Shown here piece by piece: positions 29 to 32,508 of a DNA stretch of 51,791 nt (positions are counted from its first letter, which is position 1; every line of letters starts with the position of its first letter). The position numbers and the translations under genes are program-made. Below the pieces are notes generated by a model. That model was not told the DNA's origin and made no database searches. It was given only the letters and a program-made list of their open reading frames with translations. This stretch comes from Sulfuricurvum sp. GTDB lineage: Bacteria > Campylobacterota > Campylobacteria > Campylobacterales > Sulfurimonadaceae. Where the stretch lies: contig NZ_JAQTQR010000009.1 in assembly GCF_028712165.1 (NCBI RefSeq), forward strand, positions 1 through 51,791, in the 5' to 3' direction.

Positions 29-395
29 GATAGTTTGCGGATGTATTTATCTGTACATAACTACTAGAAATAGAGCTGATTGGTATGTGGTACAATTCGG
101 GTATATGACTGTGGGAATATGATGTAATTCCCCACAACCCTCTCTGAAATCCCCTGTTTTAGGGGTTTTCAATCCTCTAAAATATTTTTTCTATCCTATT
201 TAAATCATCATTTGAATTTTTCATTCTTTTTCTTCACTCGAGCGCGGAGTACAAATAGGCAGCTAAGAAAGGTATCGATCGGTAATTAGTCTCTTTTTTA
301 TCTTTTAAAATCATGTTTATCCTCAGATTGGATATATAGATATATAACTGTATAAATATTAATCAATTCATAGTCTTTTGATATTGCCAAATCAG
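29..395. other. Long intergenic region upstream of the guanidine operon
   Basis: I see no convincing gene here. It holds an imperfect inverted repeat around 111-135 (GTGGGAAT and ATTCCCCAC arms), a terminator-like hairpin at 147-169, and then AT-rich sequence leading to the operon promoter. A TACAAT box at 91-96 upstream of the two hairpins could start a short non-coding transcript of roughly 70 bases, but this is weak. Confidence 0.4.
147..169 (+). terminator. Candidate intrinsic terminator
   Basis: The arms CCCCT and AGGGG enclose a GTTTT loop, flanked by AAAT on the left and TTTT on the right. The T run is short, so strength is uncertain. It would end transcription entering from the left edge. 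Confidence 0.5.
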
Positions 396-591: not shown

Positions 592-1710
592 ATGACACAT
601 TCATTCACTCAGTGCACATCTGCTGCAGGCTCAATCAAACATACATCATCAAAGCTTTCCACCCGTATTTCATTGGCTGTTTTGGCTTTAGCCGTCGCAT
701 CTACGACAGCGTTTGCCGCTCCGAAAACCCACTTTAAAGTTGCATGGACCATTTATGCCGGCTGGATGCCGTGGGATTACGGTGCCCGAAAAGGGATCGT
801 TAAAAAATGGGCCGATAAATACGGTATTCAAATCGATGTCGTTCAGCTCAACGATTATGTTGAATCGATCAATCAATACAGCGCCGGATCGTTCGACGGA
901 TGCGTTATGACCAATATGGATGCATTGACGATCCCGGCTGCGGGCGGGGTTGATTCGACTGCTGTAATTATCGGAGACTATTCAAACGGGAATGACGGGA
1001 TCGTCTCGAAAACTGCCAAAAGTATGAAAGAGCTTAAAGGGCAGAAAATCAATTTGGTTGAATACTCGGTTTCTCATTATTTGCTGGAGCGGGGACTCGC
1101 TTCTGCAGGAATGAGCGCCAAAGATGTCAAAACAATCAATACGTCCGATGCGGACATCGTTTCGGCATTCAATTCGCCTTCTATGAAAAATGTGGTGACA
1201 TGGAATCCGCAGCTGGGCGAAGTCAAAAAAGTGCCGAATGCGACCCTTTTGTTTGACTCGAGCAAAATCCCGGGTGAGATTATCGACATGATGGTTGTAA
1301 ACACCCAAACTCTCAAAGACAATCCAAAACTGGGTAAAGCGCTGACCGGCGCATGGTATGAGATTATGGGAATTATGTCCAAAAACGATGCCAAAGGGAT
1401 TGAAGCTCGGACGTTAATGGCAAAAGCTTCAGGGGCATCACTCAAAGATTATCAATCACAGCTCACAACCACCAAAATGTTTTATACGGCTGCAGAAGCT
1501 CAAAAGTTTACGGAAGATCCTAAACTCATCACGACGATGGGAGATGTAAGCAAGTTTTCATTTGCCCATGGACTCTTAGGAAGCAAAGCCAAAAATGAAG
1601 GCTTTATCGGTATGACGTTCCCGGCAAATAAAACGCTCGGAAATACTAAAAATACTAAGCTTCGATTTACTTCGGAATATATGAAACAAGCGGCAGAAGG
1701 GAAACTGTAA
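592..1710 (+). CDS. ABC transporter substrate-binding protein, probably guanidine
   Basis: A 372-residue exported solute-binding protein of the NMT1/TauA-like family usually labelled 'putative urea ABC transporter, substrate-binding'. It has a long polar start (about 24 residues), a hydrophobic segment and a probable cleavage after AFA near residue 42. The mature part begins with the family-typical AGWMPWDYG block and then GIVKKWADKYGI. The ATG at 592 follows a good ribosome site (AGGAGGA at 580-586). First gene of the riboswitch-controlled operon; permease and ATPase follow directly. The family is commonly tied to urea carboxylase-like clusters; here the riboswitch points to guanidinium as the bound solute. 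The ligand itself is not provable from sequence. Confidence 0.88.
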   Translation: MTHSFTQCTSAAGSIKHTSSKLSTRISLAVLALAVASTTAFAAPKTHFKVAWTIYAGWMPWDYGARKGIVKKWADKYGIQIDVVQLNDYVESINQYSAGSFDGCVMTNMDALTIPAAGGVDSTAVIIGDYSNGNDGIVSKTAKSMKELKGQKINLVEYSVSHYLLERGLASAGMSAKDVKTINTSDADIVSAFNSPSMKNVVTWNPQLGEVKKVPNATLLFDSSKIPGEIIDMMVVNTQTLKDNPKLGKALTGAWYEIMGIMSKNDAKGIEARTLMAKASGASLKDYQSQLTTTKMFYTAAEAQKFTEDPKLITTMGDVSKFSFAHGLLGSKAKNEGFIGMTFPANKTLGNTKNTKLRFTSEYMKQAAEGKL

Positions 1711-1713
1711 TCC

Positions 1714-2523
1714 ATGCGTCTGATCAATCTGAACGCTGGACGGTTTTCACCGCTTTTAAAGATACTGCCGTTTGTGATTCTCGGGTTGGTCTATTGGATT
1801 GCAGCAGATGCACGTCATGCGCTGAACCCGGAAGACAAGCTTCTTCCGACATTTGAAGCACTCGGAGATGCCATCAAAACGATGGTAATGGAACCGGATG
1901 AACTGACGGAAGAGCCGATTTTATATACCGATACAATAGCAAGCCTTACCCGGATCGCAAAGGGTCTGGGGATTGCGACGGCTATTGGCTTGATTTTGGG
2001 GATTGTTCAGGGGACATTACCGCTGTTTCGATCACTCCTTTCACCGTTTTCAGCGGCAATATCGTTGATACCGCCGATTGCGATATTACCAATATTATTA
2101 GTGGTGTTCGGAATGGAAGAGTCGGCTAAAGTGGCATTGATCGCGATCGGTGTCGCTCCGTTCTTGGTCCGTGATACGCAGCAGCGTTCTATGGAACTTT
2201 CCGAAGAGCTGTTGATCAAAGTGCAAACGCTTGGGGCATCGACATGGCAGATCATTGTACGTGTGGTCTTGCCGCATGTCATGCCTCGTCTTTTGGATGC
2301 TTTGAGACTCTCTTTAGGATCGGCATGGCTGTTTCTGATCACTGCGGAAGCGATTGCTTCATCGGAAGGGTTGGGTTATCGGATCTTTTTGATGCGCCGT
2401 TACATGGAGATGGATGTGATCTTGCCGTATGTCGCATGGATTACGTTATTGGCATTTCTGATGGATTGGGTACTCGCAGTGATTATCCGTAAAGCATTTC
2501 CATGGTATCGGAAGGAGAAGTAA
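1714..2523 (+). CDS. ABC transporter permease, probable guanidine importer
   Basis: A 269-residue inner-membrane protein of the BPD_transp_1 (SsuC/TauC-like) type. A hydrophobic N-terminal segment is followed by a loop rich in acidic residues (about 30-65), then about five more membrane segments. The cytoplasmic coupling loop that contacts the ATPase lies around residues 165-185 (the TLGASTWQIIVRVVLPHVMP block). It starts three bases after the binding-protein gene ends and its stop shares one base with the ATPase start (TAATG), so the three are made together. Role: the channel that moves the solute delivered by the upstream binding protein. Confidence 0.88.
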   Translation: MRLINLNAGRFSPLLKILPFVILGLVYWIAADARHALNPEDKLLPTFEALGDAIKTMVMEPDELTEEPILYTDTIASLTRIAKGLGIATAIGLILGIVQGTLPLFRSLLSPFSAAISLIPPIAILPILLVVFGMEESAKVALIAIGVAPFLVRDTQQRSMELSEELLIKVQTLGASTWQIIVRVVLPHVMPRLLDALRLSLGSAWLFLITAEAIASSEGLGYRIFLMRRYMEMDVILPYVAWITLLAFLMDWVLAVIIRKAFPWYRKEK

Positions 2524-3299
2524 TGAGTTATCTGCAAATACGCAATGTATGGAAAACATACGATGACAATGTCATTCTCGAAAAACTCAATTTTACGATC
2601 GAAAAAGGGGAGTTTTGTACCCTTATCGGACCTTCCGGATGCGGTAAAAGTACCTTTTTGCGGATGCTGCTGGGACAGGATACCCCATCACGCGGAACAA
2701 TTCTGCTGGAGGGGGAACCGCTCTCTGCAGAGCCGGGGAGTGATCGCGGGGTTGTATTCCAAAAATACACCCTGTTTCCACACCTTAAGGCATTGGAAAA
2801 TGTGATGTTGGGATTGGAAATGGAACACTCTCCTTTACTGGGCAAAGTATTCGGAAGCACACGCCGCAGAATCAAAGAGGAAGCGATGGCAATGCTGGAA
2901 TCGGTCGGATTGGAACAATCGGCGCTCAAATATCCTTCCGAGCTTTCCGGGGGGATGCAGCAGCGTCTCTCCATCGCACAGGCGTTGGTGAAAAAGCCCA
3001 AAATTTTGCTGCTGGATGAACCGTTCGGCGCATTGGATCCGGGAAGCAGAGCGGACATGCAAGAGCTTGTCCGAGGATTATGGAAAATGTACGGGCTGAC
3101 TGCTTTTATGGTCACACACGACGTAAAAGAGGCCTTTGAACTGGGGACGCGATTGCTGGTCTTTGATAAAGTCCGACATGATCCTCAAGCACCGAACGCA
3201 TACGGTGCTACGGTCGTCAATGATATTAAACTGGATAAAAATAAACGAAAAAATAAAGGAGAAGAGAATGTCGAAAAATATGAAACCACTATTGCCTGA
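2523..3299 (+). CDS. ABC transporter ATP-binding protein, probable guanidine importer
   Basis: A 258-residue ATPase with complete motifs: Walker A GPSGCGKST at residues 36-44, Q-loop FQK near 79-81, signature LSGGMQQR at 141-148, Walker B ILLLDEP at 161-167 and the switch His in MVTHD at 196-200. The start at 2523 is chosen because it follows AGGAGAAG and overlaps the permease stop; an upstream in-frame ATG (2502) would lie inside the permease. The lysine-rich tail (about 236-258) overlaps the next gene by 32 bases, suggesting coupled translation. It drives the importer formed with the two preceding genes. Confidence 0.9.
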   Translation: MSYLQIRNVWKTYDDNVILEKLNFTIEKGEFCTLIGPSGCGKSTFLRMLLGQDTPSRGTILLEGEPLSAEPGSDRGVVFQKYTLFPHLKALENVMLGLEMEHSPLLGKVFGSTRRRIKEEAMAMLESVGLEQSALKYPSELSGGMQQRLSIAQALVKKPKILLLDEPFGALDPGSRADMQELVRGLWKMYGLTAFMVTHDVKEAFELGTRLLVFDKVRHDPQAPNAYGATVVNDIKLDKNKRKNKGEENVEKYETTIA

Positions 3300-4032
3300 G
3301 ACGGTCCTCTTTGATGAGGTGCTGGTCGGAGGCGGACGCTGGAGTAAAATCATCCGCAAAGGACAGGTTCTGCGAATCGTGAATACGGAAGCGACAAGCG
3401 GCCTTTCGGCACTTTTTTACAATGTGCATGAACGGACAGAACGGTATAACGCTGCCGATACGGTCAAGATTCAATACAACGCGTATCTCAAAGAGGGCAA
3501 AGCGCTCTATTCGGATATGGGACGTATTTTGATGTCGATCATCACCGACAGCTGTGAAACCCATGACACAGTTTGCGGCTATACCATGGCTGCTGATATC
3601 GCAGGACTTTGCGGAATCGGAAACTATCAGAGCAAACGCAACTGCTATTACAAAAACGATTTCGATAATTTCCTGGTGGAACTCGGAAAATACGGAATGG
3701 GGCGCCGTGACATCATGCCGTGTCTTAATCTTTTTTCCGATGCACGAATCGGTGATAGCGGAGAGCTGATTTATCGTGATGATTCCGTACCAGCGGGAAG
3801 TTTTATCGAACTGCGTGCAGAGATGGATGTATTGGTCATTCTTTCCAATACGGTGCATGTACTGAGCACGAATCAATCGTACGATGTGAAACCGGTCAGT
3901 CTGATCGTGTATCAGGGTGAAGAGGCGGCAGCCGATGACATGTGCGTGATCGATTCGGAACGAAGCGAACGTGCATTTGTAAACACCAAAAACTATATGA
4001 AACAGTTTATTCAAGGATACAGAAATGTCTGA
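3268..4032 (+). CDS. DUF1989 protein (UAAP2 type), carboxyguanidine deiminase subunit
   Basis: A 254-residue protein of the DUF1989 / 'urea carboxylase-associated protein 2' family. Work on guanidine metabolism has shown that the paired DUF1989 proteins of such clusters form carboxyguanidine deiminase (CgdAB), which hydrolyses carboxyguanidine to allophanate plus ammonia. The motif C96-x2-H99-D100-T101 is shared with the next gene (C97, H100) and is a likely metal or active-site element. The start ATG follows AAGGAGAAG and lies inside the end of the ATPase gene. The gene overlaps its partner by eight bases, consistent with a hetero-oligomer made in equal amounts. The exact subunit name is not assigned here. 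Confidence 0.85.
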   Translation: MSKNMKPLLPETVLFDEVLVGGGRWSKIIRKGQVLRIVNTEATSGLSALFYNVHERTERYNAADTVKIQYNAYLKEGKALYSDMGRILMSIITDSCETHDTVCGYTMAADIAGLCGIGNYQSKRNCYYKNDFDNFLVELGKYGMGRRDIMPCLNLFSDARIGDSGELIYRDDSVPAGSFIELRAEMDVLVILSNTVHVLSTNQSYDVKPVSLIVYQGEEAAADDMCVIDSERSERAFVNTKNYMKQFIQGYRNV

Positions 4033-4666
4033 GATGATTACGGTCGATTTGACCATAAACGAACCTATTTATGATGAAACGATCCCTGCCGGAGAACCTT
4101 GGTATCGAGTAGTCAAAGCCGGTGAAGTACTGCGGATCGTCGATTTGGAAGGGTGCCAGGCGGTGGATACCCTTTTTTACAATGCCAATGACGTCACGGA
4201 ACGCTACAGTGCTCCGCAAACGATCGTACGCCAAAAAAATATTTTTGTCGAAACCGGGACAGAACTGGTTTCCAATCTGGGAAATACGATGATGAAAGTG
4301 ATCAGTGATACCTGCGGTCGTCACGATACACTGGGCGGTGCATGCAGTGCCGAGAGCAATACTGTCCGTTATGCGCTGGACAAACTCGATATGCATTCGT
4401 GCCGGGATAATTACCTTTTGGCCTTGGGACAGATGGGGATGGACAAGCGTGATCTAGTGAGCAATATTAACTTTTTTATGAATGTTCCGGTAGAAGCAGA
4501 CGGGACATTGGCCATTATCGACGGGATATCGAGCCCGGGAAGTACGATCGAGCTGTTTGCCCTGATGGATACCTTGGTTTTGATCTCCAATTGTCCGCAA
4601 CTCAATAACCCGTGTAACGCCTTTAATCCGAGTCCTGTTCGATTGAGTATCTATAAACCTGTTTGA
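4025..4666 (+). CDS. DUF1989 protein (UAAP1 type), carboxyguanidine deiminase subunit
   Basis: A 213-residue paralogue of the preceding protein; both share the N-terminal pattern RIV(D/N)xE, a 'LFYN' block, the C-x2-HDT motif (C97, H100, D101, T102) and an aspartate-rich 'MGM(D/G)(K/R)RD' block. It is the 'urea carboxylase-associated protein 1' type and should form carboxyguanidine deiminase with the upstream subunit. It differs from UAAP2 in the C-terminal part, which is shorter. It is separated from the carboxylase gene by only 35 bases. Confidence 0.85.
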   Translation: MSEMITVDLTINEPIYDETIPAGEPWYRVVKAGEVLRIVDLEGCQAVDTLFYNANDVTERYSAPQTIVRQKNIFVETGTELVSNLGNTMMKVISDTCGRHDTLGGACSAESNTVRYALDKLDMHSCRDNYLLALGQMGMDKRDLVSNINFFMNVPVEADGTLAIIDGISSPGSTIELFALMDTLVLISNCPQLNNPCNAFNPSPVRLSIYKPV

Positions 4667-4701: not shown

Positions 4702-7700
4702 ATGTTTGCCAAAGTACTGATTGCCAACCGTGGGGAGATTGCATGCCGCATCATCCGTACACTTAAAAAAATGCAGATCGGTTCGGTTGCGGTTTATTCG
4801 CATGCCGATGCCGGATCGCTTCATGTGATGATGGCCGATGAATCGGTATGTTTGGGTGAACCGCCAGCCAAAGAGAGTTATTTGGATAGCGAAAAAATCA
4901 TTCAGGCGGCAAAAGATACCGGAGCGGAAGCGATTCATCCCGGGTATGGCTTTTTGAGTGAAAATGCGGCATTTGCACGCCGATGTGCGGAAGAGGGAAT
5001 CATTTTTATCGGTCCGACCCCTCGGCATATGGAAGAATTCGGCCTTAAACATACGGCACGTTCTATGGCAAAAGCCCAAAACGTTCCACTGCTGCCGGGG
5101 ACGGAGCTGCTTGAAAATGTAGAAGAAGCTCTAAACGCAGCCGAAACGATCGGCTATCCGGTGATGCTCAAAAGCACGGCCGGCGGCGGCGGAATCGGGA
5201 TGCAGCTGTGCTACAGCGCCGATGAGCTCGAAAACGGATTTGAATCGGTTGGCCGTCTCAGTAAAAGCAATTTTTCTCAAGGGGGAATCTACCTCGAAAA
5301 ATTCGTCGCTTCAGCCCGCCATATCGAAGTACAGATCTTTGGTGACGGCAAAGGGGATGTGATAGCACTGGGAGAACGGGACTGTTCGCTCCAGCGCCGT
5401 AACCAAAAAGTGATCGAAGAGACGCCGGCACCGGGATTATCCGAAGAGATCAGGGACGCATTACGCACTGCTGCTGTGAATCTGGCACGCTCTGCATCCT
5501 ACAAATCAGCGGGAACGGTAGAGTTTGTCTACGACACGACGGAAGAAAAGTTTTATTTCCTCGAAGTCAATACTCGCTTGCAGGTCGAACATGGTGTCAC
5601 GGAAGAGATCTACGGTGTGGATTTGGTCAAGTGGATGATTCTCGAAGCTGCCGAAGAATTGGGCGATACGTTGACGAAACAGTATGTGCCAAGCGGCCAC
5701 TCGATTCAAGTCCGTGTCTATGCGGAAGATCCGCTGAAAAACTTCCAGCCCAGCTCCGGAGTTTTGAGCGAAGTGGTATTGCCTGAGGGTGTGCGCTGTG
5801 AAACATGGATTGAGCGCGGCAGCGCTATCTCTCCGTATTACGATCCTATGATCGCCAAGCTCATCGTACATGCGTCTACACGTGAGGAAGCGATTGAATC
5901 GATGATTTCGGCGCTTCGAAAAACGACCTTGTACGGGATCGTGACGAATCTCGGGTATTTGGATTTTGTATTAGGACAAGAGGTCTTTGCAAAAGGAGAG
6001 CAGACGACAAAGTATCTGGGAACACTCAATTATTCGCCAGATATTGTCGAAGTGATCAAACCGGGAACCCATACGACGATCCAATCGGCTCCCGGACGGA
6101 TCGGCTACTGGGATATCGGTGTTCCGCCCTCAGGTCCGATGGACTCACTCTCATTCCGTTTGGGAAATCGCCTTTTAGGCAATGATGAAAAAGCTCCCGG
6201 CCTTGAAATGACAGTGACGGGATCGACACTGAAATTTCATTATCCGACACGGATCGTCCTGACCGGGGCACAGATGAAGGCGCAGCTAAACGGTGTAGAG
6301 GTTCCGTATTGGGAAACAATCGAGATTGTCGGAGGTGATGTCCTTAAAATGGGGATCATTGAGGGAGACGGTGCCCGCACCTATTTGCTGATTGACGGCG
6401 GATTTAATGTGCCGGAATATCTTGGAAGTACGGCAACATTTACACTGGGTGAGTTTGGCGGTCATGGCGGGCGTATTTTACAGATCGGCGATCAGCTGAG
6501 TACCCATATCAGTGACACACAGAAAACCCCGGCAATCCTCGATGCCGCATTGCGCCCGCAAATGGCCAAAGAGTGGAAAATCGGGGTGATTTACGGACCT
6601 CACGGAGCACCTGATTTTTTTAAAGAGGAGTATATCGAGACGTTTTTTGCAACCGATTGGGAAGTACACTATAACTCGAACCGTACGGGAATCCGTCTCA
6701 TCGGTCCTAAACCGCTTTGGGCGAGAGAAGACGGCGGAGAAGCAGGGTTGCACCCTTCGAACTTGCATGATAACGCCTATGCGATCGGAACGGTTGACTT
6801 TACGGGAGATATGCCGGTTATTTTAGGTCCGGACGGCCCAAGTCTGGGCGGTTTTGTCTGTCCTGTGACGATTGTCGGTGCGGAATTGTGGAAAATGGGA
6901 CAATTGGGTCCAAAAGACAGAGTCCGATTCGTTCCGATGGCGTATGATGATGCGGTTTTAATGGAACGTGAACTAGAAGAAAAGATCGTAACACTGGATG
7001 GATCATTGCCGACTCTTCCGGTGTCAACGGTTGTCGATCCGATCGTAGCGGAAATTGCTGAAAATGATCGTCATGATACGGTTCGTATCCGTTTGTCCGG
7101 GGATCATAACATTCTGATCGAATTTGGTCCTATGGAGCTTGATCTGACGCTGCGTTTTCAAGTACACGAACTGATGCGCCGTCTCGAATCTGCGGAGGAT
7201 GCTCGATTAATAGATCTTACTCCGGGGATCCGGTCGCTGCAGGTTCACTATGACAGTCAGAAGCTCCCTTTGAGCGAGTTATTGGCTCGAATCGAGAGTG
7301 AACTCTCACAAATGCCGGCTACCCGGGACATTATCGTCCCAAGCCGTACGGTTTATCTTCCCCTCTCGTGGGATGATCCCTCTACGAAACTGGCGATTGA
7401 GAAGTATATGCAGTCGGTACGTGATGATGCGCCGTGGTGCCCGAGTAATATCGAGTTCATCCGACGGATGAACGGCCTGGAAAGTATCCAAGATGTCCAA
7501 AATATCCTCTTTGAAGCGGAATATCTTATTATGGGATTGGGGGATGTCTATCTGGGAGCTCCTGTTGCTGTTCCTGTCGATCCGCGCCACCGCTTGGTTA
7601 CGACCAAATACAATCCTGCCCGTACCTGGACACCTGAAAATGCGGTAGGAATCGGCGGTACCTATATGTGTGTTTACGGTATGGAAGGCCCCGGCGGATA

Positions 7701-8301
7701 CCAGTTCGTCGGACGGACCGTACAGATGTGGAACCGGTATAAATCGACGACTGATTTTAAACCGGGGAAACCGTGGCTATTGGAATTTTTTGACCGTATC
7801 CGTTTTTATCCGGTTGCCCAAGAGGACCTGGCTCAAATGAGAAAAGATTTTATCAACGGGACCTTCTCTTTGAGAATCGAAGAGGGAGAGTTCTCTTTGG
7901 CAGAGTACCTCGGATTCCTTGAAACGAACAGCGAATCGATCGCCGCATTCAAGCATATTCAGCAGGAATCGTTCAAGGAAGAACGCGAACGTTGGGAGGC
8001 ATCGGGTATTTCAGCCTATGTGAGCGAAACGCTCGAAACGAATGATGAGAGTGATTTCGCGGAAGTTCCTTCAGGGTGTGAAGCGGTTTCAAGTTTTCTC
8101 TCAGGTAATGTCTGGGAAATTTCGGTCAAAGTCGGCGACCGTGTTACGGAAGGCGATACGCTTGTCGTTATCGAAGCGATGAAATCGGAAGTGATGATCG
8201 AGTCTCCCGTCAATGGTGAAGTAGTACAGATTTTATGTACACAAGGCGATACCGTTCATACGGGAAATACCCTCATCATTATCAAAACAGAAGGTGTATG
8301 A
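4702..8301 (+). CDS. Guanidine (urea-type) carboxylase, biotin-dependent
   Basis: A 1199-residue single-chain carboxylase without the fused allophanate hydrolase of fungal urea amidolyase. Biotin carboxylase domain about 1-450, with ATP-grasp glycine loop GGGGIGM (161-167) and active-site block E288-V-N290-T-R292. Carboxyltransferase region about 455-1080, made of KipA-like (AHS2, starting with [19 protein letters not shown]) and KipI-like (AHS1) parts. Biotin carrier domain about 1120-1199 with the biotin site EAMKSE, K1161. The carboxyltransferase motif reads VDFTGD (D699); as I recall, true urea carboxylases tend to have Asn here and guanidine carboxylases Asp, which fits the riboswitch and the DUF1989 partners. 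Reaction: guanidine + bicarbonate + ATP to carboxyguanidine. The start follows GTGAGGAAAAAAA. Cytoplasmic. Confidence 0.92.
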
Positions 8302-8642
8302 TGAACAGCTGGATTTTATTGGCCTTGGCTATTTTACTGGAAGTTGCCGGAACGACGTCGATGAAACTTTCCGACGGGATGCAAAAGATTTTCCCGACAG
8401 TTATGATTTTTGTCTTTTATGCGATGGCATTTGTATTAATGCCGTTTGTGATGAAAAAAATTGAGATGAGTACAGTTTATGCGATCTGGACAGGTGCTGG
8501 GACGGTAATGGTGACCGTGATAGGGATTGCCTATTTTAGTGAGTCATCCAATCCGATCAAACTGGCCAGTATCGCTCTAATCGGGCTTGGAGTCGTGGGA
8601 CTTCATTTTGCAGAACGCAGTTCACAAGGAGGGTTAGGATGA
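8301..8642 (+). CDS. Small multidrug resistance (SMR) family transporter
   Basis: A 113-residue protein with four membrane segments. The essential glutamate is E14, and the YAIWTGAG block of segment 3 is present. I chose the second of two adjacent ATG codons: AAGGTG at 8291-8296 then has proper spacing and E14 aligns with EmrE numbering. It shares one base with the carboxylase stop and overlaps the allophanate hydrolase by four bases. Operons under this riboswitch class often carry guanidinium exporters (Gdx) of the same family. Here the segment-1 motif is EVAGTTSMK, with Gly three residues after the Glu as in the Qac/EmrE subtype rather than the Trp of Gdx, so the substrate could be guanidinium, a substituted guanidine or another cation. 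Confidence 0.85.
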   Translation: MNSWILLALAILLEVAGTTSMKLSDGMQKIFPTVMIFVFYAMAFVLMPFVMKKIEMSTVYAIWTGAGTVMVTVIGIAYFSESSNPIKLASIALIGLGVVGLHFAERSSQGGLG

Positions 8643-10387
8643 GTCAATTAAAAACGATCAGTGATTATCTGCATCAATATCGGGTGGAAGGTCGTGGCGT
8701 CAGAGAAGTGATCCAAAGTTGTCTCAATGATTCAAAAATGTATGACGACAAGAACATATGGGTTACCAAAGCGGACGCTTCCTTCCTTGAGCCGTATTAT
8801 CTCCGTTTGGAGTCGCGTGATCCTAGCTCATTGCCGTTATTCGGTGTCCCGTTTGCGGTAAAAGACAACATCGATGTTGCGGGGATGAACACAACGGCGG
8901 GATGTGCAGAATTTTCCTATCTCCCGAGTGAACATGCGTTTGTGGTGCAACAGCTGATTGATGCCGGTGCGATTCCGATCGGAAAGACCAATCTGGATCA
9001 GTTCGCCTCAGGACTTGTAGGGACACGCAGCCCTTATGGGGAGGGGATCAACCTGTTTAATCCCGATTACATCTCCGGAGGCTCGAGTTCAGGGTCTGCG
9101 TTGGCTGTGACCGCGGGAATCGTCCCTTTTTCTCTGGGTACCGATACGGCAGGTTCGGGTCGTGTCCCTGCCGCGTTCGGAAACATCGTCGGATTAAAAC
9201 CGACACGCGGGGCACTTAGTATACGGGGTGTTGTCCCTGCGTGTAAAAGTCTCGATTGTGTCGCTATCTTTGCACAAAACTGCGAAGATGCCGGACGTGT
9301 TTATGATCTGTGCAGCATCGTGGATGACGAGGACTCTTTTTCACGTTCGAAAAGTTGCATCACTCCGTTCGGAGGGACGTTTCGCTTCGGAGTACCGGGA
9401 GCGGATCAGCTGGAATTTTTCGGAAACCGTGCATACGAAACCTTATTTTGGGAGAGTGTTGAAAAACTCGAATCGTTAGGGGGTATCCGATGCGAGATTG
9501 ATTTTACCCCTTTTATGGAGAGCGCAAAACTGCTCTATCACGGACCGTGGATTGCTGAACGCTACTGCGGGATAAAAGAGTTTGCCGAAACTCAGAGTGA
9601 CGCGATGCTGGATGTGACACGTGGGATTATCCTCTCCGGTGCCAAACCGAGTGCTATCGACGCCTTTGAAGGGTTCTACCGCCTATCAGAACTCAAGAAA
9701 GTTAGTGAGGGGATAATGGCTTCGGTCGATATGATCGTGACCCCTACGGCCGGAACAATTTACCGTCGTGATGAGATTCGCGAACAGCCTCTCGCATTGA
9801 ATACGAATCTCGGCTATTACACCAATTTTATGAATTTGCTTGATCTAAGCGCGTGTGCTATTCCTGCAGGATTTACCCCTGAGGGGTTACCGTTTGGTGT
9901 AACCCTTGCCGCACCCGCTTGGAATGAACATTCTCTTTTAAGTGTCGGTGCAAAACTGCATACTTCGTCGGGACATACAAGCGGCCTTATCGAAGCGAGC
10001 AAACCGAAAACAGTGACATTAGCCGTTTGCGGCGCTCATATGTCCGGTCTTCCACTGAATCATGAACTGACCAGTCGTGGAGCAAAAATGGTAAAGAAAT
10101 CTTCCACCGCTCCGCAGTATCGATTTTTTGCGCTGGAAAGTTTTACACCTCCGCGTCCCGGCCTTATTCATGTTCGCAGCGGGGGTTCCCACATTGAAGT
10201 GGAAATTTGGGAGATGCCATCAGAAGAGTTCGGATCATTTTTCAACGGAGTTCCGCCTCCATTAGCACTGGGAAGTTTGATATTGGCCGATGGTAAAGTT
10301 GTCAAAGGATTTCTTTGTGAGGGATACGCAGTTGACGGTGCCAAAGAGATTACAGCATTAGGTGGATGGAGAAATTATTTAGAATAA
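8639..10387 (+). CDS. atzF: Allophanate hydrolase
   Basis: A 582-residue amidase-signature enzyme that hydrolyses allophanate, giving two ammonia and two CO2 overall. The Ser-cisSer-Lys machinery is visible: K75 in FAVKDN, the Gly/Ser loop SGGSSSGS (146-153, containing the cis-Ser) and the nucleophile S173 in DTAGSGR. Residues 1 to about 440 are the amidase domain; the rest (about 455-582, beginning LAVCGAHMSGLPLN) is the C-terminal domain typical of AtzF, absent from plain amidases. Its length fits the free-standing family. Last gene of the operon; the start overlaps the SMR stop by four bases. It completes the guanidine route: carboxylase, deiminase, allophanate hydrolase. Confidence 0.95.
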   Translation: MSQLKTISDYLHQYRVEGRGVREVIQSCLNDSKMYDDKNIWVTKADASFLEPYYLRLESRDPSSLPLFGVPFAVKDNIDVAGMNTTAGCAEFSYLPSEHAFVVQQLIDAGAIPIGKTNLDQFASGLVGTRSPYGEGINLFNPDYISGGSSSGSALAVTAGIVPFSLGTDTAGSGRVPAAFGNIVGLKPTRGALSIRGVVPACKSLDCVAIFAQNCEDAGRVYDLCSIVDDEDSFSRSKSCITPFGGTFRFGVPGADQLEFFGNRAYETLFWESVEKLESLGGIRCEIDFTPFMESAKLLYHGPWIAERYCGIKEFAETQSDAMLDVTRGIILSGAKPSAIDAFEGFYRLSELKKVSEGIMASVDMIVTPTAGTIYRRDEIREQPLALNTNLGYYTNFMNLLDLSACAIPAGFTPEGLPFGVTLAAPAWNEHSLLSVGAKLHTSSGHTSGLIEASKPKTVTLAVCGAHMSGLPLNHELTSRGAKMVKKSSTAPQYRFFALESFTPPRPGLIHVRSGGSHIEVEIWEMPSEEFGSFFNGVPPPLALGSLILADGKVVKGFLCEGYAVDGAKEITALGGWRNYLE

Positions 10388-10412
10388 AAAGCCCTACACT
10401 TTCAGTTCTCAT

Positions 10413-10439
10413 CAGCAGGTGTGTTTATCCAGCCTGCTG
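10413..10439. terminator. Inverted repeat after allophanate hydrolase
   Basis: CAGCAGG (10413-10419) pairs with CCTGCTG (10433-10439) over a 13-base loop, 26 bases after the atzF stop. No T tract follows, so it is a 3'-end stability hairpin or a weak terminator for the operon. Confidence 0.4.
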
Positions 10440-10531
10440 TAGCCGCATTAAACTTCACTACTCTCCCTTATTTCAATCATTTTTATAGATATTTGTAAAG
10501 TATAAACATTTAGGGGAATAAAGATTCAAAT

Positions 10532-10547
10532 GACCGCCGAAGCGGTC
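10532..10547 (-). terminator. Terminator hairpin of the porin gene
   Basis: On the minus strand GACCGC and GCGGTC enclose a TTCG tetraloop, an unusually stable hairpin, followed by an AT-rich tail (ATTTGAATCTTT). It lies 13 bases after the porin stop. It may also protect the 3' end of the operon transcript coming the other way. Confidence 0.65.
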
Positions 10548-10560
10548 TAAAGAAGATCGA

Positions 10561-11778
10561 TCAAAATTTATACGTTAGATAAACTTGAATGTTATTGTAG
10601 TATTTAGCATCGTTATAATCATTGGCTTTAGAGTAGACATACGCGAGACTTGTGTCCAGTGAACCAAAAGATTTAGCTGCTGTTGCTGTATATTCACTCA
10701 TATCATTATTGCCATTTTCTGCACGCTGATTAACATCTGTATAAAAGAATCCAAGAGAGACGATATCAGGAATGTTGTAGAGTGCAGTCACATTATAGGC
10801 GCTCACACCTGCGGCACCTACATAGCCAAAATTCCACCATGCTTCGGTATAAAGCTTTGACTGCGCTCCGCCATTGCCGCCCGTGGCCAAGTTGGCGATT
10901 TGAAAGTTGGATGATCCGTCTTTATCTGTTTGAGAAATTGCAGCGCTTAATGTGAGGTTTTCAATACCGGTGTACCCGATTTTAGCGGCAAACGCTTTGG
11001 AATTGTCCGATGAATCGAGCATATTATCCGGGTTTAAAACAGCTGCCTGAACTCCAAACGTCATTCCGGAATACTCCGTATCTCCCTGAATCCAGTATGC
11101 TTTAGCCGTATTTTTGAGTTCGTAGAACCATGCTTGAAGTTCAGTGCCGTTCAAAGATTTATTTTTGGCACCTACGACATAGGCCCCTTCATAAAACTTC
11201 TTGAATGGATTTTTTAATCTTCCTGAGTCGGTAATCGCCGGATTGACAGATGCGAATCCGTTAACGCCATTGCCCTTGTCGATATAGGCTCCGATAAGTG
11301 TCGTATCCGACAAGTCGGTATTTTCAACTAAAACAGCATCAAACGTATTAGACGCGATATTCCAAAGTTCGGTAAAAGCAAAAGGGGTATCAAGGCTCTG
11401 GCGACCAAGGGTTATCGCTGTTTTATCCAATACATTTTTATTGATGTAAACCTCGCTCAACCAGACTTGGCTTCCCATCATCCCGGTTGCCCACGGTGCA
11501 TTGGCAATATTGCCGCCCATATTTGCCGTGGCTAATCCCGTACCGGCGATTTTTCCTTTGAATCCGGCTCCCAGATCGGCACCGACACCCATATCAAGAC
11601 CGAATTGAGCGAATGCTCCTTCTTTGTTAAAAAGGCTAGGACGGTTAGTCCCATCCGGAGATCCGTCTACCGTGCCGTAAAAGAATTTACCGGCACCGGT
11701 AACTTCTATGTTTTCGACAGCAAAAGATGACGTGCATAACAACAATGACGCCAATAAACTTATTTTTCTAACTCTCAT
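10561..11778 (-). CDS. Outer-membrane porin under guanidine-I riboswitch control
   Basis: A 405-residue exported beta-barrel protein. The signal peptide is residues 1-19 or so (RKISLLASLLLCTSSFA, then V). The mature part alternates polar and aromatic residues as in barrel strands, with many Gly/Asn/Asp turns, and ends in Phe (YLTYKF), the outer-membrane insertion signal. It resembles the OprD-like porins of Campylobacterota. The ATG at 11778 follows TAGGAG. Its 5' leader is a near copy of the guanidine operon leader, including the aptamer and terminator, so it should be made when guanidine is present. Inference: it lets guanidinium (or guanidino compounds) across the outer membrane; OprD porins are known for basic amino acids such as arginine, which carries the same group. 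The pore's selectivity cannot be read from sequence. Confidence 0.88.
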   Translation of the reverse strand: MRVRKISLLASLLLCTSSFAVENIEVTGAGKFFYGTVDGSPDGTNRPSLFNKEGAFAQFGLDMGVGADLGAGFKGKIAGTGLATANMGGNIANAPWATGMMGSQVWLSEVYINKNVLDKTAITLGRQSLDTPFAFTELWNIASNTFDAVLVENTDLSDTTLIGAYIDKGNGVNGFASVNPAITDSGRLKNPFKKFYEGAYVVGAKNKSLNGTELQAWFYELKNTAKAYWIQGDTEYSGMTFGVQAAVLNPDNMLDSSDNSKAFAAKIGYTGIENLTLSAAISQTDKDGSSNFQIANLATGGNGGAQSKLYTEAWWNFGYVGAAGVSAYNVTALYNIPDIVSLGFFYTDVNQRAENGNNDMSEYTATAAKSFGSLDTSLAYVYSKANDYNDAKYYNNIQVYLTYKF

Positions 11779-11802
11779 AATGACTCCTAAACGGTTTTTG
11801 AG

Positions 11803-11832
11803 AAAAAACTGGGAGAAATATCTCTCTCTCCC
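11803..11832 (-). terminator. Riboswitch-controlled terminator of the porin leader
   Basis: On the minus strand GGGAGA (11832-11827) pairs with TCTCCC (11816-11811), then AG and six T residues (11808-11803). The left arm is the 3' end of the aptamer, as in the operon copy; the loop is two bases longer here. Confidence 0.85.
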
Positions 11833-11914
11833 GGGCTTTTATCCCTCCGTGTAGCCGCTTACGAGGCCGGATGCTCTCGGACCAGCACTTTGCAGTCGGA
11901 ACCCTAGTATCCAT
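11827..11914 (-). promoter_or_regulatory. Second guanidine-I (ykkC) riboswitch aptamer
   Basis: On the minus strand it has the same ordered conserved blocks (CTAGGGTTCCG, CTGGTCCGAGAG, ACACGGAGGGATAAAAGCCC, GGGAGA) as the aptamer at 455-542, with only a couple of substitutions (GATGCTAG becomes GATACTAG, CTGAAAAG becomes CTGCAAAG). It controls the porin gene. The level of identity, covering also the variable hairpin, points to a recent duplication of the regulatory leader. Confidence 0.95.
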
Positions 11915-11928
11915 TTATTGACAATATT

Positions 11929-11946
11929 GGGAGATATATTCCCCCC
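11929..11946 (-). promoter_or_regulatory. Conserved leader hairpin upstream of the porin riboswitch
   Basis: Copy of the hairpin at 422-439: a G-rich arm and ATCTCCC, with one base changed next to the loop that widens the loop but keeps six pairs. Conservation with pairing retained suggests the hairpin matters for the transcript. Confidence 0.5.
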
Positions 11947-11965
11947 GAATTTTCTACATGAAATA

Positions 11966-11971
11966 ATTATA
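11966..11971 (-). promoter_or_regulatory. -10 box of the porin gene
   Basis: TATAAT on the minus strand, at the same distance from the conserved CATGTAGAAAATTCGG block as in the operon. Sequence similarity between the two leaders begins at about this box, so promoter and riboswitch seem to have been copied as one unit. Confidence 0.65.
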
Positions 11972-12109
11972 GTTTAATAAATAGAATATCTAGAAAGTAA
12001 ATCGATTAATTTTTAAACAATAATAGGACTCACCTATAAATCGATTTAAAACGCTGTCGTTTAGGTTATTTGGCTAGAATAGGTCTATTATCCTTCTAAG
12101 GAGGCATAG

Positions 12110-21614: not shown

Positions 21615-21683
21615 GCAACACCTTTAATTTGAGATAAAGGTGTGCATTATATATCCAAACAAATGGATTTAAGAAGAAGAAGT

Positions 21684-21698
21684 GATTAAAATTTAATC
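21684..21698. promoter_or_regulatory. 15-bp palindrome upstream of amt2
   Basis: GATTAAAATTTAATC, perfect dyad except the centre base. Nearly the same palindrome is upstream of the other amt gene (23499-23513). A further GATTAAA half-site is at about 21703-21709. Candidate operator for nitrogen control; alternatively part of a weak terminator of the PII gene that ends at 21705. Confidence 0.45.
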
Positions 21699-21704
21699 AA
21701 ATGA

Positions 21705-23400: not shown

Positions 23401-23498
23401 TTTTTCTCCTTATGTTTGGACTTTTTAATCGGTCCGTATTAACGTAAATGTCAGGTACCATTGTACAGAGTAATTTAAAAGCAATAGCGCAAATTATT

Positions 23499-23513
23499 GA
23501 TTAAATTTTAATC
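23499..23513. promoter_or_regulatory. 15-bp palindrome upstream of amt1
   Basis: GATTAAATTTTAATC, dyad with a variable centre base, about 100 bases upstream of the amt1 start and outside the inferred -10 region. It matches the palindrome before amt2 (arms GATTAAA and TTTAATC, one central base apart). Shared position upstream of both transporters suggests a regulator-binding site. Confidence 0.45.
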
Positions 23514-23603
23514 AGTTTTAGAGATGAATTAAAAAACATATGATTTTTTATCTATAAGGAAAGAGAATAAGTCTTTATTAAACGAATGAGTGATAATTTA
23601 GAT

Positions 23604-32333: not shown

Positions 32334-32408
<75 letters not shown>

Positions 32409-32433: not shown

Positions 32434-32508
<75 letters not shown>

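Follow-up and report, generated by a model that had tools for sequence, protein, structure and literature searches.

Guanidine operon and convergent porin gene

The DNA analyzed here (the window; 51,791 nucleotides) is the complete contig G000:C22 of a 2.72-Mb Sulfuricurvum genome that is 99.9% complete. Two matches to the guanidine-I riboswitch model RF00442 were found in this genome, both inside the window. The plus-strand match (451 to 543; 80.4 bits) heads an operon that encodes, in order and on the same strand, an ABC importer (592 to 3299; TIGR03427 equivalog and Pfam matches) made up of a substrate-binding protein (SBP; 592 to 1710), a permease (1714 to 2523), and an ATPase (2502 to 3299); UAAP1 and UAAP2 (3136 to 4666; TIGR03425 and TIGR03424), which according to the literature are carboxyguanidine deaminase subunits; a urea/guanidine carboxylase (4702 to 8301; TIGR02712, 1849 bits); an SMR-family exporter, likely of the Gdx type (8235 to 8642; PF00893); and an allophanate hydrolase (8639 to 10387; TIGR02713). 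The start of UAAP1 in the ORF list lies too far upstream, and the true start of the SMR gene is probably internal. With importer, UAAP1/UAAP2, carboxylase, and allophanate hydrolase under a guanidine riboswitch, this is a guanidine carboxylase assimilation cluster, and its gene set is that of the guanidine carboxylase pathway known from the literature (PMC12186494). In the guanidine operons of other genera of the family (L042, 902 to 7127; L117, 689 to 7928; and others), extra uncharacterized genes of about 260, 283, 295, and 337 codons sit between UAAP2, the carboxylase, and the allophanate hydrolase, which is there split into two genes; the window operon lacks these extra genes and has the SMR gene and a one-gene allophanate hydrolase. 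Elsewhere in the window, two tandem tRNA-Asn(GTT) genes (32334 to 32408 and 32434 to 32508) lie 25 bases apart and have identical covariance-model scores.

An earlier note, made from the letters of the window alone, had described an outer-membrane porin gene that adjoins this operon and has its own guanidine-I aptamer in front of it, and this observation was confirmed. The porin gene (10561 to 11778, minus strand) is an open reading frame of 405 codons with a signal-peptide-like start, MRVRKISLLASLLLCTSSFA (signal peptide at about residues 1 to 20), and a C-terminal Phe; the genome has about nine further porin genes. Searches of Pfam, NCBIfam, and PDB sequences returned nothing for the protein, and the Pfam OprD family PF03573 was not matched even at an E value of 1, although 14 of 22 relatives match that family weakly and a profile built from the 22 weakly reaches two OprD-type structures, 5DL6 and 4FRX. 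An AlphaFold2 model computed from the window protein and proteins of related loci has 18 strands (pLDDT 77, pTM 0.77), and a Foldseek search with it returned Campylobacter jejuni MOMP as the best hit (5LDT, E = 7.6e-20), followed by Occ channels. The model thus identifies the protein as an 18-stranded porin of the MOMP/OprD fold, the barrel that it has in common with C. jejuni MOMP (PorA) and the OprD/Occ channels; identity to these proteins is at most about 19%, and "OprD-like" is valid at the level of the fold only. Porins of the window genus have dN/dS values of 0.05 to 0.08 and are under purifying selection.

The earlier note had argued from OprD-like porins that take up arginine, with its guanidino group, to a guanidinium porin. 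This analogy fails because OccD1/OprD requires a carboxylate on its substrate, and agmatine, a cation that has the guanidino group but lacks the carboxylate, is only a slight competitor of arginine uptake (PMC3260308); guanidinium has no carboxylate, and the nearest solved structure is the Campylobacter MOMP rather than an OprD channel.

The porin leader and its predicted switch

Aptamer, terminator, promoter, and ribosome-binding site of the porin gene follow one another in the expected order on the minus strand. The aptamer (11826 to 11918) was matched by cmscan over model positions 1 to 107 at 75.9 bits (E = 8e-12), above the gathering score of 63, so that the complete guanidine-I aptamer that the earlier note had placed at 11914 to 11827 was correct to within a few bases. 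Its core elements CTAGGGTTCCG, GGTCCGAGAG, and ACACGGAGGGATAAAAGCCCGGGAG are kept, and in an alignment of 23 aptamers the core columns are invariant; the window copy has one A.C mismatch in P1. The intrinsic terminator was likewise found where it had been described (11803 to 11832), with a stem from 11832 to 11811 and a T run reaching 11803; the scan returned one terminator, compared with 0.2 expected in shuffled sequence. Its 5' arm, GGGAG, overlaps the 3' end of the aptamer, so that the two elements have this motif in common, as expected of an expression platform coupled to the aptamer. A -10 box TATAAT lies at 11966 to 11971, identified from the sequence and from its fixed spacing to an upstream operator across leaders, and the ribosome-binding site AGGAG at 11788 to 11784. 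Guanidine control of the porin would follow from what is established for this riboswitch class.

A strand 5' of each aptamer is complementary to the 3' arm of the corresponding terminator and to part of its U tract; in the window, 11934 to 11954 (minus strand, GAAAATTCGGGGGGAATATAT) can pair with 11803 to 11822, and 414 to 434 with 545 to 566. The pairing takes the form GAAAATTCGGGGGGA against UCUCCC..UUUUUUC in the window genus and AAAACAUG..GAGGUU against AACCUC..CGUGUUUU in the remaining genera, the strand changing along with the terminator between genera. Cognate duplexes average -23.4 kcal/mol, compared with -15.3 kcal/mol for swapped ones (0 of 5,000 permutations as low) and -10.5 kcal/mol for a reversed-arm control. 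The difference persists in the non-Sulfuricurvum leaders alone (-21.6 versus -16.9 kcal/mol; 0 of 5,000 permutations) and is weak among the 11 similar Sulfuricurvum leaders alone (282 of 5,000); two porin leaders, those of G143 and G282, show weaker pairing. The upstream strand, which the Rfam model does not cover, is a candidate antiterminator that would enclose the aptamer and would fit an ON switch.

Distribution, origins, and nitrogen control

Guanidine-I aptamers are present in 24 of 397 genomes of the class and in 25 of 228 genomes of the family. A search for aptamers upstream of porins in related genomes, which the earlier note had suggested, found the arrangement repeated: 8 of the 25 family genomes carry two aptamers, and in all eight the second directly precedes a porin. 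These are the window genome, G362, and G448 of the same genus, in which the porin is convergent to the operon, and G116 and G368 (g5) and G143, G282, and G507 (g2), in which the order is aptamer-porin-aptamer-SBP-operon. In six further genomes the guanidine locus includes a porin that lacks its own aptamer: in G406 and G465 it lies immediately 5' of the operon aptamer, with no second aptamer at the gathering score, and in all four g6 genomes (loci L117, L118, L119, and L120; near 9838 to 11273) it is the last gene at the operon, about 173 bp past a small allophanate-hydrolase-like gene. In total, a porin is found at the guanidine locus in 14 of the 25 genomes. It is evidently dispensable, since only three of the eight guanidine-I Sulfuricurvum genomes in the set have it. 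Among 80 named loci of near relatives of the porin a guanidine operon with aptamer was present in one only, that of G406.

Outside Campylobacterota, where guanidine-I aptamers were only sampled, seven plasmid records encoding a relative of the binding protein were read, of which five carry a guanidine operon (Azospirillum, Caballeronia, Pantoea, Asticcacaulis, and Novosphingobium), and no porin was found near any of these five operons of Alpha-, Beta-, and Gammaproteobacteria. The Vibrio and Klebsiella plasmid matches to the binding protein (at most 44% identity) proved not to be guanidine operons, and no relative of the porin or of the binding protein was found on viral contigs. On the plasmid of Novosphingobium sp. 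EMRT-2 (L230), a TonB-dependent receptor gene (6258 to 8669, minus strand) is transcribed divergently from the operon of the guanidine importer and carboxylase; this locus gave no match to a guanidine riboswitch at the gathering score, and the receptor is possibly another outer-membrane solution for guanidine.

In a maximum-likelihood tree of 30 porins, the aptamer-controlled porins of the window genus do not join those of g2 and g5, and forcing all of them into a single clade costs 69 log units (p-AU = 2e-7). In a tree of 40 leaders, the porin leaders of the window genus fall among the operon leaders of that genus and those of g2 and g5 fall beside the operon leaders of g5, g2, and g72; a single clade of porin leaders was rejected (p-AU = 2.7e-46). 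With two porin clades, and with porin leaders that group with the operon leaders of their respective lineages, the trees indicate that the aptamer-porin wiring arose at least twice, most simply by each lineage placing a copy of its own operon leader before a different porin. We claim two origins and not three because the porin tree does not reject a clade that joins the window-genus porins with the operon-end porins of g6 (p = 0.47). The two leaders of the window are 90.6% identical over 191 nt, the similarity extending from the -10 box as far as the ribosome-binding site. The porins closest to that of the window (59% identity) are found in other Sulfuricurvum as tandem duplicates, next to a porin whose gene comes after an enoyl-ACP-reductase-like one (named from its sequence by eye); this suggests a housekeeping porin type, duplicated in tandem, as the source of the window porin.

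Most of the 40 leaders carry the palindrome TTGATTAAAATTTAATCAA, or a close form, centered 40 bp before the -10 hexamer. In the window it stands as TTGTTTAAAAATTAATCGA before the porin (12002 to 12020, minus strand) and as CTGTATAAATATTAATCAA before the operon (348 to 366, plus strand; 14 of 19 consensus matches). The consensus was derived partly from guanidine leaders, and the fair support for it therefore comes from other sites. Near matches in the window genome precede amtB-glnK (23497 to 23515), a second amt gene (21682 to 21700), and glnA on contig C125 (G000:C125:14262); further matches stand beside siroheme-type and MoaC genes, and the matched positions include C83:2852 and C116:14641. 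The aptamer-less porins at guanidine loci match at 15 of 19 positions (G406), 17 of 19 (G465), and 15 of 19 (two g6 porins tested); 15 of 19 is reached in 0.7% of random 320-bp stretches, and 3 of 23 other porins have the operator. One porin that lies apart from the guanidine operon and is second in a tandem pair (L106; G425:C1:310101-311336) has an 18-of-19 match with a -10 box at the right spacing. The palindrome is a candidate operator of a nitrogen regulator in Campylobacterota, at which a nitrogen-starvation activator would act. Because it is common to guanidine-locus porins, amtB-glnK, the second amt gene, and glnA, it suggests control by nitrogen starvation together with guanidine, i.e., assimilation rather than detoxification.

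Role of the porin in guanidine use

We consider it likely that the locus encodes a regulon for using guanidine as a source of nitrogen, with an outer-membrane channel of its own, the porin, that raises permeability to guanidinium. Low nitrogen would switch on both promoters through the common palindromic operator. When guanidine is absent, the terminator at 11832 to 11803 would form and porin transcription would stop; when it is present, the aptamer would hold the GGGAG of the terminator 5' arm while the strand 5' of the aptamer could pair with the 3' arm, and the porin would be made. The 18-stranded MOMP-type porin would then make the outer membrane more permeable to guanidinium, and the coinduced binding protein and ABC importer would bring it into the cell, to be carboxylated and deaminated before the allophanate is hydrolyzed. 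The sequences themselves show the regulatory anatomy and that it is conserved; passage of guanidinium through the porin is what we infer. The earlier note had proposed the porin as the outer-membrane step of guanidine uptake, and this part of the proposal gains from the conservation of the arrangement, its second independent origin, and the operator that it has in common with nitrogen-assimilation genes, even as the arginine argument falls away. The porin is probably the outer door for guanidine as nitrogen food.

How specific that door would be is a separate matter. As a small ion, guanidinium should get through ordinary porins, which counts against the need for a special one, and the chances come close to even that the porin is a guanidine-induced general channel, for cations or small solutes overall or mainly for related compounds such as methylguanidine or urea, without selectivity for guanidinium. 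The two recruited porins are unrelated, the window porin appears to come from a housekeeping type by way of tandem duplication, and no acidic pore of the kind that would mark guanidinium selectivity was found, the window porin being no more acidic than its paralogues and the net charge of the recruited porins being ordinary for the family; were any porin enough, however, there would be little need for an extra guanidine-controlled one, let alone twice. A guanidine-inducible, guanidinium-selective channel that joins the binding protein and ABC importer in a dedicated two-membrane uptake route under double control (nitrogen-starvation operator and guanidine ON riboswitch), evolved at least twice in Campylobacterota by leader copying, is a tentative reading that we hold to be the less probable of these two.

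A role in detoxification, in which the SMR exporter puts guanidine into the periplasm and the riboswitch-induced porin lets it leave the cell, draws on the SMR gene within the same operon and on the frequent control of exporters by guanidine riboswitches (PMC12186494). We think it unlikely: the porin leader has its operator in common with amtB-glnK, amt, and glnA, the tandem-porin genomes have the assimilation operon but no match to the window SMR protein near the porin, and the induction of genes for import and degradation implies that uptake prevails. Assimilation fits better. That the leader was duplicated by chance before a bystander porin with no part in guanidine use would agree with how recent the copy looks and with the absence of the porin from most operon-bearing Sulfuricurvum, but it seems very improbable given that the wiring arose separately in other genera, that the porin is under purifying selection, and that every part of the switch is intact in three species.

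A porin is nowhere mentioned in the limited sample of guanidine literature covered (a 2025 review and papers on comammox, methylguanidine, and Nitrospirales genomics), which does not deal with how guanidine crosses the outer membrane, and a literature search joining guanidine riboswitches with porins returned nothing relevant. A guanidine-responsive porin would be new to the guanidine regulon, and what is unexpected is that it originated twice. A porin under riboswitch control, with a second origin, suggests that natural guanidine use can be limited by how permeable the outer membrane is, and it names a testable gene; it also illustrates how a riboswitch regulon may grow, a whole promoter-riboswitch leader being duplicated onto a new gene, and the common operator offers a handle on nitrogen control in Campylobacterota.

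Control of an outer-membrane protein by a riboswitch has a precedent in the cobalamin riboswitch, which controls the outer-membrane receptor BtuB. In both cases a riboswitch would control the outer-membrane uptake step for its own ligand or a related compound, but BtuB belongs to the TonB-dependent receptors and is turned off by its ligand, whereas the window protein would be a diffusion porin switched on by its substrate. The guanidine carboxylase operons of Raoultella, Klebsiella michiganensis, and Vreelandella (PMC12186494, PMC12508155) have the same aptamer class as the window, together with importer, carboxylase, deaminase, and allophanate hydrolase genes and a terminator-type switch; the window differs from these in a second aptamer, placed to control a porin.
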